The notes beneath the pieces were generated by a model, which was not told where the DNA came from, did not search any database, and saw only the letters and a list, made by a program, of their open reading frames with translations. The position numbers and the translations under genes were made by a program. A stretch of 64,000 nt of DNA from Amycolatopsis sp. EV170708-02-1 (lineage in GTDB: Bacteria; Actinomycetota; Actinomycetes; Mycobacteriales; Pseudonocardiaceae): the NCBI RefSeq assembly GCF_022479115.1, contig NZ_CP092497.1, forward strand, positions 1,426,001 through 1,490,000. The letters run 5' to 3'. Numbering within the stretch: the stretch's first letter is position 1; every line of letters starts with the position of its first letter. This document shows, piece by piece, positions 479 through 50,632 of this stretch.

Positions 479-525
479 GACCGTGTGGATTTTGGTGCGT
501 TGGATGACCTGAAATCCACACGGTC
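479..525. repeat. Perfect 14-bp inverted repeat
   Basis: Bases 479-492 are the exact reverse complement of 512-525, with 19 nt between. No T-run follows, so it is not a clear terminator. No gene lies close enough to assign a regulatory role. Confidence 0.6.
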
Positions 526-693: not shown

Positions 694-825
694 GTATGGG
701 TTGGCGTCGTGGAGCGCGGTGGCGTGGTGGGCGGGTGCCGGGCCTTTGTCGGGATGGTCGCCTGATCGGGAGCTGCGGGTATGCCGAGGGGCCCGTCGCC
801 TGGGTGGCTGGCGGGCTCCTCGGGC

Positions 826-2079
826 CTAGACGTGGTGCAGGGTGTTGCGGCGGGGTTTTCGGAGCGGATCCCGGTACTGGGGTGGGATGAACTCGGGTAA
901 CCCGTCGGCCGCCATGCGTACTTCCCAGTCCCCGTGATGGATCAGCCGATGGTGGAACCCGCAGAGCAGGACCAGGTTCCGGAGATCTGTGGGGCCTCCG
1001 TCTGCCCAGTGCTCAATGTGGTGGGCGTGGCAGTTCTTGGGTTTCCGATGACAGCCGGGGAAGGCGCAGCCACCGTCACGGATGTTCAGCGCGCGTCTCT
1101 GGCCGGGTGTGACGAATCGTCGCAGGCGTCCCATGTCGAGTGGCTCGCCCGAGGCGCTCATCACGACTGGCAGCATGAGGCAGTCGCAGGCGGCGAGTCT
1201 GGCTTCGCGCGCGGTCATCGTGCCCACGAAGTCGAGGCAGGCGGTCCCGAGACCGGATTTGAGTTCTTCGAGTCCGATGGTGACGTGCACGAGGGTGCGG
1301 TAGCCGCTGGTGCCGGGCTGGTCCGGGCAGGCGATCGCCAGGTCGAGGAGGTCGGCCCAGGCGTCTCCCATGCGCTCGCATTTCATCCGCAGATCCGCCT
1401 GCCCGAACTCGTCCACCGGCCGCGGCTGGGCATGCGCCTCCAATGCGGCCGCCGTCCGAGCCCCGGTCTCATCGTCCAGGAGGCCGGTCAGCTTCCAGAA
1501 CCCGTCCTTCCGGCGTTCCAGGGTGATCTCGCGGCGTGGTTCCTTAGGTTCGGGGTCTTTGGGTTCCTTGCCGTCCGGGTCGAGCCAGCCCAGCAGGTTC
1601 GCCTCGGCCTTGGTGAGCTGTGCGGGTCCGGCATTCGGGGCCAGGTCGGCGAGGATCTTCTCCGCCTTCGCCCGATCCTCCGCAGAGGTATCGGCCGGGA
1701 GTCGTTTCAAAATCTCCAGAATCTGATCGATCCGCTCGTCCCCGATCAGTCCCGCGGCGGCGACCGCGGCGGTCGCGGGAGCAACGGCGGGAACTTCGGT
1801 GCCGTCCAGAGCCCGGGTGGGGTTCAACGCGACGGCCCGCTTCACCACCGCACTGGCCTCACCGCGCGACAATCCCGCCATATCCGCAAACCAGCTGGCC
1901 GCACTGCCATGGCCGTACAAGTCTTTGACGCCCCGAGACTCGATCTCCGCCAGAAACTGCCCCAGCGCGGCAGTCGCCATCCGAATCACCTGCAAGGACT
2001 GCTGCACGCCATGCGCAAGCTCCAGCTTGCCAGCACGCCACAACTCCTGCGGCAACTCGGGAAGGAAGGTCTCGGACAC
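826..2079 (-). CDS. DUF222/HNH endonuclease-domain protein (13E12 family), copy A
   Basis: Predicted 417-aa protein with an N-terminal helical DUF222 region and a C-terminal HNH nuclease fold at about residues 336-382 (CAFPGC, CHAHHIEHW, then FHHRLIHH). HNH domains cut DNA using a divalent metal; the target here is unknown. I chose the GTG at 2079 because the paralogue at 36976 has the same start and length, and because the -10 and SOS box sit at identical distances. An upstream extension to 2376 is open but would run through the promoter. I count 13 residue differences from the paralogue (about 97% identity). The family belongs to the mycobacterial 13E12 repeats, some of which are DNA-damage-inducible. 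Confidence 0.85.
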   Translation of the reverse strand: MSETFLPELPQELWRAGKLELAHGVQQSLQVIRMATAALGQFLAEIESRGVKDLYGHGSAASWFADMAGLSRGEASAVVKRAVALNPTRALDGTEVPAVAPATAAVAAAGLIGDERIDQILEILKRLPADTSAEDRAKAEKILADLAPNAGPAQLTKAEANLLGWLDPDGKEPKDPEPKEPRREITLERRKDGFWKLTGLLDDETGARTAAALEAHAQPRPVDEFGQADLRMKCERMGDAWADLLDLAIACPDQPGTSGYRTLVHVTIGLEELKSGLGTACLDFVGTMTAREARLAACDCLMLPVVMSASGEPLDMGRLRRFVTPGQRRALNIRDGGCAFPGCHRKPKNCHAHHIEHWADGGPTDLRNLVLLCGFHHRLIHHGDWEVRMAADGLPEFIPPQYRDPLRKPRRNTLHHV

Positions 2080-2085
2080 GACTCC

Positions 2086-2116
2086 ATAATACCCGAAGAA
2101 ATCGAACACGTGTTCG
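2086..2116 (-). promoter_or_regulatory. SOS (LexA) box and -10 of DUF222 copy A
   Basis: The perfect palindrome CGAACACGTGTTCG at 2103-2116 fits the Gram-positive/mycobacterial LexA consensus CGAAC-N4-GTTCG. On the minus strand TATTAT (2086-2091) is a good -10 and places the start site at the GTG itself (2079), implying a leaderless mRNA. The SOS box would then cover the -35 region, as expected for a repressor site. The palindrome is seen directly; LexA control is inferred from the motif. Confidence 0.75.
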
Positions 2117-2297
2117 TAATTTTGAGCAACAATCAAAAGACGCGAACAACACTGAAGAGTGATACCGCCCCGCATGGATATCACGCAAGGAAACGGGATC
2201 GCAGTTAGCCGACTAAATGCGGAGCAAACGCCTTGTGAGCGGTAAGGAAGGCTAGAGCGGACCGGTACCGCGCCTGAGCTGGGCGGAACTGAAATGT

Positions 2298-13949: not shown

Positions 13950-15470
13950 ATGACGGAAACCCCTGCGATGCTGCGGATGAGCCATATCCGGAAGGAATTC
14001 CCCGGCGTGGTCGCCCTCGACGACGTCTCCTTCCGGATGTTCCCCGGCGAAGTGCACGCCCTGATGGGCGAGAACGGCGCCGGAAAGTCCACTCTGATCA
14101 AGGTGCTCACCGGCGTCTACGGGGTGGACGCCGGCACCATCGAGCTCGACGGTGCCCGGGTCGCCTTCAGCGGTCCCGGCGAGGCGCAGCGCTCCGGCGT
14201 GAGCACCGTCTACCAGGAAGTGAACCTCTGCCCGAACCTGTCGGTGGCGGAGAACATCTGCCTCGGCAAGGAGCCGCGACGGCGCGGCCGCATCGACTGG
14301 CGCGAGACGCGCCGCCGGGCGGCCGCGCTGCTGGCCAGGCTGGACGTCGAAGTGGACGTTTCGGCCGAGCTGGGCGGCTGCTCGATCGCGGTGCAGCAAC
14401 TGGTCGCGATCGCGAGGGCGCTCGACGTCGAGGCACGGGTGCTCGTCCTCGACGAACCGACGTCCAGTTTGGACGCCGGCGAGGTCGAGCAACTGCTGAA
14501 CGTGGTGCGTTCGCTGCGGGACCAAGGGATGGCGATCCTGTTCGTCTCGCATTTCATCGAGCAGGTCTTCGCCGTCGCGGACCGGATGACGGTGCTGCGC
14601 AACGGGAAGCTGATCGGGGAGTACCGCACCGAGGAGATCACCCCGGTCGACCTGGTGACCAGGATGATCGGCAAGGAACTCGCGGCGCTCGAAGACATCG
14701 AGGACGCGGGACACAGCCGGTCGGACGTCGCCGGGGCGCCCGTCTTCCTGGAAGCGGGCGACGTCGGCCGCAAAGGCGGTGTGGCGCCGTTCTCGCTCGA
14801 CATCCGGTCCGGCGAGGTCGTCGGTCTCGCCGGGCTGCTCGGTTCGGGGCGCACCGAACTGGCGCGGCTGCTGTTCGGCGCCGATCACGCGGACAGCGGC
14901 TCGGTGCGGATCGACGGCGAGCCGGTGGCGTTGAAGACACCGCGGACCGGGCTCGACCACCGCATCGCGTTCTGCTCGGAGAACCGCAAGACCGAGGGGC
15001 TCGTCGAGGAACTCACCGTGCGCGAGAACATCGTGCTCGCGCTGCAGGCCTCGCGCGGCTGGGCGCGGCCGATCCCGCGGCGGCGGCAGGACGAGATCGC
15101 CGAGCGCTACATCAAGGCGCTCGACATCCGGCCCGCCAACGCCGAGGCGAAGGTCGGCGACCTGAGCGGCGGCAACCAGCAGAAGGTGCTGCTGGCGAGG
15201 TGGCTCATCACCGAACCGCGGCTGCTGATCCTCGACGAGCCGACGCGCGGCATCGACATCGGCGCCAAGACGGAGATCCAGCGGCTGGTCGCGCGGCTTT
15301 CGAGTGAGGGGATGGCCGTGGTGTTCATCTCCGCCGAACTCGAAGAAGTGCTCCGGCTGAGTCACCGGGTCGTCGTACTGCGCGACCGCGCGGTGGTCGC
15401 CGTGCTGGACAACGAAGCGCTGACCGCGGACCAGGTGATGGCGACGATGGCCGAAGGAGTCGCACGATGA
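13950..15470 (+). CDS. ytfR: Sugar ABC transporter ATPase (YtfR-like, two ABC domains)
   Basis: The 506-aa protein has two fused ABC domains, the hallmark of monosaccharide importers. Domain 1 shows [10 protein letters not shown]-loop YQEVN and VLDEPTSSLD; domain 2 shows the degenerate GLLGSGRTEL in place of Walker [10 protein letters not shown] and LDEPTRGID. It energises uptake through the two permeases that follow. ATG 13950 begins five bases after the binding-protein stop. The stop overlaps the next start by four bases. Confidence 0.9.
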   Translation: MTETPAMLRMSHIRKEFPGVVALDDVSFRMFPGEVHALMGENGAGKSTLIKVLTGVYGVDAGTIELDGARVAFSGPGEAQRSGVSTVYQEVNLCPNLSVAENICLGKEPRRRGRIDWRETRRRAAALLARLDVEVDVSAELGGCSIAVQQLVAIARALDVEARVLVLDEPTSSLDAGEVEQLLNVVRSLRDQGMAILFVSHFIEQVFAVADRMTVLRNGKLIGEYRTEEITPVDLVTRMIGKELAALEDIEDAGHSRSDVAGAPVFLEAGDVGRKGGVAPFSLDIRSGEVVGLAGLLGSGRTELARLLFGADHADSGSVRIDGEPVALKTPRTGLDHRIAFCSENRKTEGLVEELTVRENIVLALQASRGWARPIPRRRQDEIAERYIKALDIRPANAEAKVGDLSGGNQQKVLLARWLITEPRLLILDEPTRGIDIGAKTEIQRLVARLSSEGMAVVFISAELEEVLRLSHRVVVLRDRAVVAVLDNEALTADQVMATMAEGVAR

Positions 15471-22650: not shown

Positions 22651-24174
22651 GTGACCGACGAAATCCTTCGGATGCGGGGGATCACCAAGACCTTCCCCGG
22701 CGTCAAGGCGCTGCAGGACGTCAACCTGTCGGTGCGCCGGGGAGAGATCCACGCGATCTGCGGCGAGAACGGCGCGGGCAAGTCCACGCTGATGAAGGTG
22801 CTCTCGGGCGTCTACGCGCACGGCTCGTACGACGGCGAGATCGTCTTCGACGGCGAGCCGTGCGCGTTCTCCGCGATCCGCGACAGTGAACGCCGCGGGA
22901 TCGTGATCATCCACCAGGAACTCGCGCTGTGCCAGCAGCTGTCCATCGCGGAGAACATCTTCCTCGGCAACGAGAAGGCACGCGGCGGGCTGATCGACTG
23001 GAACCGGACCAACTCCGAGGCCGGCGAGCTGCTGCGGCGCGTCGGCCTGCGGGAGAACCCGGTGACGCCGGTGCTCGACATCGGTGTCGGCAAGCAACAG
23101 CTGGTGGAGATCGCCAAGGCACTGTCCAAAGAGGTCAAACTGCTGATCCTGGACGAGCCGACGGCGGCGTTGAACGACGACGATTCGGCGCATCTGCTCG
23201 ACCTGCTGCGCGGCCTGCGCGACGACGGCGTCACCTGCGTCCTGATCTCGCACAAGCTCAACGAGATCGCCGCGATCGCCGACTCGATCACCATCCTGCG
23301 CGACGGCAGGACGATCGAGACGCTGGACGCGAGCACGGTGACCGAAGACCGGATCATCGCCGGGATGGTCGGCCGGAAACTGGAGAACCGGTTCCCGCCG
23401 AGGGAACCGCGGATCGGCGACGAGGTCCTCCGCATCGAGGACTGGACCGTGCACAGCCCCACGCAACACGGCCGGGTCGTCGTCGACGGCGCGAGCCTGA
23501 CGTTGCGGCGTGGCGAGATCGTCGGGCTGGCGGGCCTGATGGGCGCCGGGCGGACCGAACTCGCGATGAGCGTGTTCGGCCGCTCGTACGGCAAGGACAT
23601 CTCCGGCCGCCTGATCAAGGACGGCAAGGAGATCGAAGTGCGCACGGTCGGCGACGCCGTCGCGAACGGGATCGCCTACGCCACCGAAGACCGCAAACGC
23701 TACGGGCTGAACCTCATCGAGGACATCCAGCGCAACGTCTCCGGTGCCGCGCTGCGCAAACTCGCGCGCCGCGGCTGGGTTGACGAGAACGAAGAACACC
23801 GTGTCGCCGAAGAATTCCGCAAGAGCATGAACATCAAGGCACCGGACGTGCGCAGCGTGACCGGCACGCTTTCCGGCGGCAACCAGCAGAAGGTCGTGCT
23901 GTCCAAATGGATCCTCACCGATCCGGACGTGCTGATCCTCGACGAGCCGACGCGCGGTATCGACGTCGGCGCGAAGTACGAGATCTACACGATCGTCAAC
24001 CGGCTCGCCGACGAGGGGAAGGCCGTGCTGGTCATCTCGTCCGAGCTGCCGGAACTGCTCGGTCTGTGCGATCGGATCTACACGTTGTCGGCGGGCCGGA
24101 TCACCGGTGAGGTCGGCCGGGCCGAGGCCACCCAAGAGGTCCTCATGCGGGCGATGACCAGGGAACAGGAGTAA
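22651..24174 (+). CDS. gguA: Sugar ABC transporter ATPase (GguA-like)
   Basis: The 507-aa tandem-ABC ATPase contains [30 protein letters not shown] in domain 1 and [35 protein letters not shown] in domain 2. The domain-2 P-loop is degenerate, as usual for this subfamily. It starts four bases after the chvE stop and drives the GguB permease. Confidence 0.9.
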
Positions 24175-36783: not shown

Positions 36784-36938
36784 TTTCGGGGCGCCGTTGT
36801 TTCGCTTCTGTTTATGGGGTACTGATGTCGCGTTCGAGCATCGGTGCCGGGGAAGGCGAGGGTGACAGAGCTGGGCGGGCGGACTGAATAACATCACCCT
36901 TCAGTGTTGTTAGCGTCTTTTGATTGTTGCTCAAATTA

Positions 36939-36969
36939 CGAACACGTGTTCGATTTCTTCGGGTATGAT
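36939..36969 (+). promoter_or_regulatory. SOS (LexA) box and -10 of DUF222 copy B
   Basis: CGAACACGTGTTCG at 36939-36952 is identical to the site before copy A and at the same distance (23 bp) from the GTG. TATGAT at 36964-36969 is a good -10 and would start transcription at the GTG (36976). The -35 region falls inside the palindrome. Confidence 0.75.
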
Positions 36970-36975
36970 GGAGGC

Positions 36976-38229
36976 GTGTCCGAGACCTTCCTCCCCGAAC
37001 TGCCGCAGGAGTTGTGGCGCGCTGGCGCGCTGGAGCTTGCGCATGGCGTGCAGCAGTCCTTGCGGGTGATTCGGGTGGCGACTGCCGCGCTGGGGCAGTT
37101 CTTGGCGGAGATCGAGTCTCGGGGCGTCAAAGACTTGTACGGCCATGGCAGCACGGCCAGCTGGTTCGCGGAGATGGCGGGATTGTCCCGCGCCGAGGCC
37201 GGTGCGGTCGTGAAGCGGGCCATCGCCCTGAACCCCACCCGCGCTCTGGACGGCACCGAAGTCCCCGCCGTTGCTCCCGCCACCGCCGCGGTCGCCGCCG
37301 CGGGACTGATCGGGGACGAACGGATCGACCAGATCCTGGAGATCCTGAAACGGCTTCCCGCCGATACCTCTGCGGAGGATCGGGCGAAGGCGGAGAAGAT
37401 CCTCGCCGACCTCGCTCCGAATGCCGGACCCGCACAGCTCACCAAGGCCGAAGCGAACCTGCTGGGCTGGCTGGACCCCGACGGCAAGGAACCCAAAGAC
37501 CCCGAACCCAAGGAGCCACGCCGGGAAATCACCCTGGAACGCCGCAAAGACGGCTTCTGGAAACTCACCGGCCTCCTCGACGATGAAACCGGGGCTCGCA
37601 CCGCCGCCGCGTTGGAAGCGCATGCGCAGCCACGGCCAGTCGACGAATTCGGCCAAGCCGACCTGCGGATGAAGTGCGAGCGCCTGGGAGACGCCTGGGC
37701 CGACCTGCTCGATCTGGCGATCGCCTGCCCGGACCAGCCCGGGACCAGCGGCTACCGCACCTTGGTGAACGTCACCATCGGACTTGAGGAACTGAAGTCC
37801 GGTCTCGGGACCGCCTGCCTCGACTTCGTCGGCACGATGACCGCCCGCGAAGCACGGCTCGCGGCCTGCGACTGCCTGATGTTGCCGGTGGTGATGAGCG
37901 CCTCGGGTGAGCCGCTGGATATGGGACGGCTACGACGATTCGTCACCCCAGGCCAACGCAGGGCGTTGAACATTCGCGACGGTGGCTGCGCCTTCCCCGG
38001 CTGTCATCGGAAACCGAAGAACTGCCACGCCCACCACATACATCACTGGGCAGACGGAGGCCCCACAGAGCTCCGGAACTTGGTGCTGCTGTGCGGTTTC
38101 CATCACCGGCTGATTCACCACGGTGACTGGGAAGTACGTATGGCCGCCGACGGCCTACCGGAGTTCATCCCACCCCAATACCGGGATCCGCTCCGAATAC
38201 CCCGTCGTAACACCCTGCACCACGTATAG
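36976..38229 (+). CDS. DUF222/HNH endonuclease-domain protein (13E12 family), copy B
   Basis: This 417-aa paralogue of the gene at 826-2079 has an intact DUF222 region and HNH nuclease domain (GCAFPGC, NCHAHHIHHW, CGFHHRLIHH). One change falls within the HNH region itself (HIEHW in copy A, HIHHW here). Both copies being open and equal in length suggests selection or recent copying. GTG 36976 is preceded by GATGGAGG, which doubles as the end of the -10 region, so a leaderless or very short-leader mRNA is likely. Confidence 0.85.
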   Translation: MSETFLPELPQELWRAGALELAHGVQQSLRVIRVATAALGQFLAEIESRGVKDLYGHGSTASWFAEMAGLSRAEAGAVVKRAIALNPTRALDGTEVPAVAPATAAVAAAGLIGDERIDQILEILKRLPADTSAEDRAKAEKILADLAPNAGPAQLTKAEANLLGWLDPDGKEPKDPEPKEPRREITLERRKDGFWKLTGLLDDETGARTAAALEAHAQPRPVDEFGQADLRMKCERLGDAWADLLDLAIACPDQPGTSGYRTLVNVTIGLEELKSGLGTACLDFVGTMTAREARLAACDCLMLPVVMSASGEPLDMGRLRRFVTPGQRRALNIRDGGCAFPGCHRKPKNCHAHHIHHWADGGPTELRNLVLLCGFHHRLIHHGDWEVRMAADGLPEFIPPQYRDPLRIPRRNTLHHV

Positions 38230-38340
38230 GCCCGAGGAGCCCGCCGGCCACCCAGCGACGGGCCCCTCGCCATGCCCGCCAGACAAAACCTGGGCAGCCA
38301 AACCCCGGCAGCTGCCTAATAAGACCCCGCGGCCGGCCAC

Positions 38341-50310: not shown

Positions 50311-50410
50311 GTGCGGATTTCGCCGAACGGATAGCGACAGCCGGTTGTTGCGAACCGCTTGGCATGGTGTTTCACCCCGGCTTTTCGCGTCAAGGGTGAC
50401 CGCCCGTCCC

Positions 50411-50555
50411 GAACTCGCGTGCTTGAAGGCGGAACTCGCGTGCTTGGGGCCGTAACTCACGGGCCGCGTGAGTTACGCCTCCAAGCACGCGAGTTACGGC
50501 CCCAAGCACGCGAGTTACGGCCCCAAGCACGCGAGTGTCGTGCGCAAGCACGCGG
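50411..50555. repeat. 21-bp-period repeat with inverted partner, copy 3
   Basis: The left half has two units with CTCGCGTGCTTG; the right half has at least three inverted units with CCAAGCACGCGAGTTACGG-type sequence, period 21. The two halves can fold into one long stem around 50459-50467. Units share GCGTGCTTGG and CCGTAACTC with the repeat after 17484. There are no unique spacers, so it is not CRISPR. It fills most of the 357-bp gap between hpaB and furA. Confidence 0.7.
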
Positions 50556-50632
50556 GGAAGGGTCCCGAGGTGGGCTCCGTGCAGGGCGGATCGCTGCGGG
50601 AGGGGGCGGGACACGCCCGGGATCCTGCGAAC

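Follow-up and report, generated by a model that had tools for sequence, protein, structure and literature searches.

Dispersed DUF222-HNH units with LexA-type boxes hold old positions and evolve in concert in Amycolatopsis

The stretch of DNA analysed here (the window) comprises 64,000 nucleotides, bases 1426001-1490000 of the single-contig, 9.66 Mb genome of Amycolatopsis sp. EV170708-02-1. It harbors two inverted copies of a unit of about 1.39 kb, at 775-2163 and 36893-38279, each carrying a gene for a protein with DUF222 and HNH domains behind a LexA-type box. These units belong to a dispersed family, here called the A family, whose shared positions and concerted evolution are the subject of this work. 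A preliminary description of this DNA had proposed the pair, with about 97% protein identity, and it is borne out: BLASTN aligns the copies over 1,389 columns with 2 gap columns at 90% DNA identity, a repeat search returns an inverted pair of 90% complementarity, and the proteins are 97% identical. The copies, described as near-identical, are so as proteins but not as DNA, which differs by 10%, mostly at synonymous sites.

Architecture of the unit and its encoded protein

Each unit consists of an upstream region, a promoter, a coding sequence (CDS) and a terminator, and to judge by its sequence it is self-contained, with a predicted LexA-box promoter, a GTG start, the CDS and a putative terminator (Table 1). 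By BLASTN, homology between the window copies reaches from about 85 bp ahead of the start codon to about 50 bp past the stop. The hairpin at the right end of copy 1 folds at -23.9 kcal/mol (z -2.1), a value equalled by 6 of 200 shuffles. As had been proposed, a perfect LexA-type box precedes both genes: CGAACACGTGTTCG occurs exactly twice in the window and ends 23 bp before each GTG (36976 and 2079). With up to two mismatches there are 3 matches in the window, a number reached by 0 of 100 shuffles. In full the window boxes read ACGAACACGTGTTCGA and conform to the SOS box, for which the consensus is TCGAAC(N4)GTTCGA (PMC4181829; this and the other cited papers are used here through the parts available to us), except that the first T of this 16-mer is A. 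A -10-like hexamer, TATGAT in copy 1 and TATTAT, TATGAT or TATTCT in most related copies, lies 6 nt before the GTG of copy 1; both window copies have TATGAT or TATTAT at this distance, so the transcript may be leaderless.

Table 1. Parts of the two A-family units in the window
Feature	Position in window	Strand	Basis
Unit copy 1, A family, position 1	36893..38279	+	BLASTN with inverted copy, genome copies, pairwise ends among 11 loci
LexA/SOS-type box CGAACACGTGTTCG, copy 1	36939..36952	+	Pattern scan of window
-10-like hexamer TATGAT, copy 1	36964..36969	+	Distance to GTG; comparison with related copies
CDS copy 1, 417 residues, DUF222 and HNH	36976..38229	+	Open reading frame, Pfam, conservation
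Terminator-like hairpin, right end of copy 1	38232..38270	+	Folding against shuffles
Unit copy 2, A family, position 4	775..2163	-	Inverted-repeat search, BLASTN, genome copies
LexA/SOS-type box CGAACACGTGTTCG, copy 2	2103..2116	-	Pattern scan of window
CDS copy 2, 417 residues, DUF222 and HNH	826..2079	-	97% identical to copy 1 protein
Terminator-like hairpin, copy 2, nearly the sequence of that of copy 1	784..823	-	BLASTN alignment

The 417-residue protein matches PF02720 at 122.3 bits (cut-off 24.4) and PF01844 at 24.2 bits (cut-off 21.4). H353, H354, N368 and H377, together with cysteines 338, 343, 350 and 373, are conserved in an alignment of related copies. The N-terminal domain (residues ~31-168) has a predicted fold nearest to ParB/Noc/KorB, among structural matches with no Foldseek E value below 0.001, and the prediction for the protein is a DNA-binding core, possibly ParB/KorB-like, joined to an intact HNH nuclease. 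Selection on it is strongly purifying, as the ratio of nonsynonymous to synonymous divergence (dN/dS) within the EV170708-02-1 A copies is about 0.04. Near-full-length reading frames are open in 81 of 85 readable copies (four of 89 copies, at contig ends, are left out). Filing the unit as a known defence system was rejected, since none of the PADLOC anti-phage defence model families matched at E 0.01.

Shared positions and species-wise sequences

Rather than the two copies of the preliminary description, the EV170708-02-1 genome holds 11 A copies, with 96-97% protein identity to the window copy, as well as one outlier at 72%, six copies of a sister B family (44-45%) and more distant DUF222 genes. 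Pairwise DNA identity among the 11 is 85-93% (84% in one pair aligned on into downstream DNA). In most pairs the ends fall about 85 bp before the start and 50 bp past the stop, while in some the shared sequence extends further at one end or at both. Ten of the 11 copies are open and one, L146 (G000:C1:4637600-4654900), has an early in-frame stop at about codon 14; its remainder is as alike the others as they are to each other, as would fit either ongoing overwriting or a break of recent date. Downstream of a B copy, L157 (G000:C1:5370200-5387500), the 3' end of the gene is tandemly repeated, about 105 bp and then 63 bp, as if partial copies had been left over.

Among the matches listed, a DUF222 relative occurs in 26 of 30 genomes searched (EV170708-02-1, 17 congeners and 12 of other families). 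Several Amycolatopsis genomes show only two to five distant relatives among these matches, so the A family is not genus-wide. Relatives' loci were represented by the best 80 of 127 stretches encoding a relative, and flanks were compared with the unit masked. In this set the EV170708-02-1 units and flanks are closest to those of Amycolatopsis keratiniphila and A. roodepoortensis. The flanks fall into 13 groups of 2-9 copies, with at most one copy per species, and 25 loci lack a positional partner within this set. All 11 EV170708-02-1 copies belong to shared-position groups, some common to as many as nine species. The positions are consequently old, and a recent transposition burst is ruled out. 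Of the conserved flanks mentioned in the preliminary description, none is common to the two window copies; the conservation is with the same positions in other species.

The unit sequences follow species rather than position. In a DNA tree of 89 units (L139 and L140 dropped from 91, and the 72% outlier kept out, as in all unit trees and means), assigning the 12 species labels takes 11 changes, the fewest possible (shuffled mean 63.5), and assigning the position labels 57. Synonymous divergence (dS) between EV170708-02-1 and keratiniphila is 0.767 for the 10 orthologous pairs and 0.770 for the 111 non-orthologous ones, against a mean of 0.455 among A paralogs within EV170708-02-1. Flanking genes at the same ten positions (n=53) have a mean dS of 0.183 (median 0.153), about four-fold below the units. 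Over five species, 69 orthologous pairs exceed 808 others by 0.0014 in identity (0.14%), a margin reached in 47 of 500 label permutations. Between EV170708-02-1 and G014, DNA identity is 0.833 for orthologs and 0.833 for non-orthologs, compared with 0.901 within EV170708-02-1 and 0.910 within G014. When G008 is added, species labels need 2 changes and position labels 21; one flank group in this comparison merges positions 10 and 11, so that a small number of the pairs counted as orthologous there are not. Because the pattern is the same in assemblies of 1, 4 and 1 contigs (EV170708-02-1, G014 and G008), draft-assembly error is an unlikely cause. Since DUF222-HNH gene trees follow species and not loci, orthologs cannot be called from unit sequences.

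The outlier copy, L152, is split over two frames in EV170708-02-1, and its unit is 91.9% DNA-identical to L139, the keratiniphila counterpart at the same position. Such likeness is what a copy outside the exchanging pool should show. The preliminary description had regarded conserved positions with normal divergence as an argument against a mobile SOS element; the positions proved conserved, while the divergence did not prove normal.

Local hypermutation was considered for the gap in dS between units (0.77) and flanks (0.18) and was rejected. Differences at four-fold sites amount to 0.385 between species and 0.261 within EV170708-02-1, and the excess of 0.124 is near the flank value of 0.138. 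Furthermore, at 59 sites the same two states segregate in both EV170708-02-1 and keratiniphila, where shuffles give 33 +- 3.7. Old family polymorphism therefore explains most of the divergence and no raised mutation rate is needed; on these counts the diversity of the units is largely inherited and reshuffled. Introgression between species, or strong codon selection, might also make copies alike. Introgression could account for the 59 shared polymorphisms, which exchange could give too, and for a 116-bp run common to an EV170708-02-1 copy and a roodepoortensis copy. However, the units group by species though EV170708-02-1 paralogs differ at 26% of four-fold sites, and exchange between species would blur these groups, which makes this explanation exceedingly improbable.

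Concerted evolution recurs in the sister B family and, in other species, in a third family. The B set (26 copies from six genomes, namely 20 fetched among the matches listed and the six of EV170708-02-1) has six shared positions; its species labels need 5 changes, the minimum, and its position labels 18. The B group of EV170708-02-1 has weak tree support (24), and two G014 B copies at different positions are nearly identical. The third family has two positions shared by G003 and G005, with flanks 92-95% identical. Its orthologous units there are 83.7% and 83.9% identical, inside the non-orthologous range of 78.5-84.8%, and in either genome three copies out of four are alike at 93-95.5%. In G013, ten copies average 89% identity.

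Gain and loss bear on whether the family is a classical mobile element, with repeated transposition and loss at preferred sites and lineage bursts producing the species clusters. At position 12 a unit is present in keratiniphila, thailandensis, azurea, oliviviridis and G031, and the site is empty in 7 of 9 genomes read (EV170708-02-1 and 6 of 8 others), G030 keeping a fragment of the unit terminator. At position 4, that of window copy 2, 6 of 11 genomes read have no unit (in one, G047, only the left flank matched), while G055 has a truncated unit and G032 a frameshifted one. The remnants at both positions indicate loss. Two sites, L105 and L115, are occupied only in WAC 01376. For L105, 13 genomes were searched and the flanking gene was found in ten others, with no unit within about 3.4 kb beyond it in those ten, where the right flank was likewise not found; parts of the L105 flank match many places per genome. 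The L115 site lacks the unit in EV170708-02-1 and keratiniphila, and there the two flanks join to within 2 bp; the 2.04-kb stretch concerned starts at the unit's left end and runs to about 640 bp beyond the unit. The two sites may be gains, losses elsewhere would also fit, and for L115 one deletion in an ancestor of EV170708-02-1 and keratiniphila would do equally well.

These sites, and the mobile-element characteristics ascribed to 13E12 repeats in the available parts of PMC5005354, which cites Davis 2002, speak for transposition. Against it, positions are common to up to nine species, inspection by eye of the position-12 and L115 sites showed neither terminal repeats nor target duplications (not every copy was searched), and internal tracts and the decay of linkage disequilibrium (LD), described below, need segmental exchange. 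The family does not occupy recently acquired, differing places as an insertion sequence or transposon does, the WAC 01376-only sites being possible exceptions. Shared positions with mosaic units mostly refute the classical mobile element as the main process, and we hold it to be quite improbable. Where the preliminary description left the choice between a homing or mobile system and gene conversion, the evidence strongly supports conversion (species-wise clusters, mosaics and tracts), and that for mobility is weak (remnants that denote loss, no target duplication seen).

Palindrome-like repeats (GCATTTAGTCGGCTAA type; GTCGTGAGTGG hairpins) occur in intergenic DNA beside units, at window 2200-2220, at unit ends and at empty sites. 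A CCGTGTGGATTTC...AAATCCACACGG palindromic repeat lies at window 481-523, beyond the right end of copy 2; in keratiniphila the position-12 unit likewise has a similar repeat beyond it. Elsewhere the window contains a direct repeat (15167-15371 and 23874-24078; 205 nt, 75% identical) and an inverted repeat (50399-50464 and 50506-50571; 66-nt arms, 76% complementary, spacing 41 nt).

Conversion tracts, SOS control and possible drivers

Within the units, alleles are reassorted over short distances. Third-position LD in EV170708-02-1 declines with distance (r2 0.37 at 3 bp, 0.147 at 50-100 bp, 0.12 at 100-200 bp) to near its far background of 0.11, and decays equally in keratiniphila, roodepoortensis and WAC 01376. 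Within species the longest stretch of identity averages 49-105 bp, depending on the species, compared with 32-44 in shuffles and 35 between four of the species. A tract scan (nine of 91 units left out: L139, L140 and others short or without flank) found 576 identical bases in L069/L085, at roodepoortensis positions 11 and 10, where the two units diverge chiefly on the far side, and a run of 1,050 in L105/L115; in both pairs the flanks are unrelated. Both come from draft assemblies, L115 lying about 1.4 kb from a contig end. Simulations of 11 copies (16 settings, two runs each, judged by eye) came closest with a mean tract of 100 bp and two overwrites per site and lineage since the EV170708-02-1-keratiniphila split: within-family diversity was 0.25 (observed 0.26) and LD was close, but the between-species difference was too small (0.31 vs 0.385). 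Conversion polarity from a fixed cut site was rejected, as there is no clear diversity gradient along the unit, although the first 180 nt are lower.

The marks of concerted evolution are therefore present, with shared positions at which paralogs are more alike than orthologs, and with tracts and mosaics. As read from sequence comparison, the copies hold old positions yet overwrite one another by short-tract ectopic gene conversion, like a recombining population.

The LexA box is a constant part of the unit. Among 86 related copies with upstream sequence, 80 have a perfect CGAACN4GTTCG, which in 78 of them lies 36-38 bp ahead of the aligned start. Five others deviate at a single base, and in the outlier L139 the box is missing. 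Outside units the motif occurs 4 times in 892,905 bases. The EV170708-02-1 genome contains 59 sites, one of them about 160 bp upstream of recA; the reversed pattern occurs 3 times. B copies of EV170708-02-1 carry a degenerate box, GCACAGGTGTTC; GAACAGGTGTTC or GAACATGCGTTC is found in a few relatives, and in more distant families GAACN4GTTC is found in 4 of 20 copies. The conserved box predicts that A units are probably switched on by DNA damage via LexA. CGAACN4GTTCG also occurs at 6139658 and 7291706, upstream of distant DUF222 relatives outside the A family (24-25% identity; G000:C1:6139801-6140790, L030, and G000:C1:7292017-7292814). Two genes score above the lexA model cut-off (G000:C1:1141062-1141694 and G000:C1:3821074-3821685); the former has no perfect box upstream, and GAACAGATGTTT lies about 250 bp away.

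In the proposed mechanism, LexA would keep the units off and DNA damage would switch them on together with recA. RecA would then repair breaks in a unit with another copy as template, and the lack of MutS would let strands 10% apart recombine: no MutS1 model match was found in EV170708-02-1, whereas the model matches 11 of 14 control genomes. A weaker step is that the encoded protein may make or favour breaks in family members, the family policing its own sequence by intragenomic homing. Concerted conversion, as the sequences display it, with SOS/RecA and, more tentatively, nuclease steps of this kind behind it, is the best explanation as a whole and in our judgement highly probable.

The part of the nuclease is where the alternatives divide. 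RecA might convert any dispersed 90%-identical sequences in a MutS-less genome, the units being redundant genes and the nuclease uninvolved. In addition to the missing MutS1 match, this passive process accords with the rise of Salmonella tuf conversion in a mutS strain (PMC5485169, in part) and with the concerted evolution known for other prokaryote genes (PMC6053082, in part), and nothing in the analysis ties conversion to nuclease activity. It does not alone account for the many alike copies kept in each of several DUF222-HNH families, nor for the intactness of the HNH residues, though selection for another function could do so. We regard the chances of passive conversion as even.

That the nuclease itself starts conversions, as intragenomic homing, is plausible, and passive RecA repair would suffice. 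In a selfish form, an SOS-induced nuclease would cut diverged or empty members and be copied in, as a self-homogenising element. The possibly DNA-binding core with its intact HNH residues, the near-full-length copies, the near-whole-unit copying in L105/L115 and L194/L195 and the two WAC 01376-only sites would agree with this. Yet empty sites are common at positions 12 and 4, remnants amount to plain deletion, the WAC 01376-only sites need not be gains and there is no defined target; selfish homing is accordingly a doubtful alternative. Equally tentative is a damage-induced nuclease that cuts and recopies the dispersed members of its own family. This would be an intragenomic gene drive timed by SOS, under which the family would behave like a sexually recombining population.

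Comparison with known systems

REP13E12 is a prophage attachment site. The A family, placed here by its Pfam domains, resembles the 13E12/REP13E12 repeats, to which DUF222 has been linked (PMC10589994, in part), in having DUF222-HNH proteins, several copies per genome and, in M. tuberculosis, members in the LexA regulon (PMC5005354, PMC4181829, both in part). A role of 13E12 genes in mismatch correction has also been proposed (PMC4181829). In contrast to these repeats, the A family consists mostly of full-length open copies at old shared positions that evolve in concert. For DUF222/13E12 repeats, stationary families exchanging sequence form a testable recombination system instead of a vague 'mobile repeat'.

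Free-standing HNH homing endonucleases spread by break repair, the mechanism proposed here. The A family shares with them an HNH nuclease and a further, possibly DNA-binding part, and differs in having no known target, intron or intein and in that it would spread among copies inside one genome.

Like tufA and tufB, the units are distant paralogs kept alike within species by gene conversion (PMC6053082, PMC5485169, both in part). Conversion of tuf in Salmonella occurs at 2e-8 per cell and generation with mismatch repair and at 2e-5 in a mutS strain, at one selection point (PMC5485169). Whereas tuf comprises two translation-factor copies, the A family consists of many dispersed nuclease genes with 10% DNA diversity reassorted in short pieces. 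The M. tuberculosis PE/PPE genes provide another actinobacterial case of conversion among dispersed paralogs, with three events among a few close paralogs (PMC12046097, in part); in the main text of that paper 13E12, HNH and DUF222 are not mentioned. In the open-access literature, outside which most subscription papers lie, no report of concerted evolution of the 13E12 family was found, nor any of DUF222 together with gene conversion.

Concerted evolution and LexA-linked 13E12 genes were each known separately; the combination of the two, with positions long fixed and a pool of copies that recombine freely, did not turn up in the open-access literature covered. With 11 and 6 copies in the EV170708-02-1 genome, the A and B families offer natural, marked, dispersed alleles on which ectopic gene conversion can be measured in a bacterial background lacking MutS.
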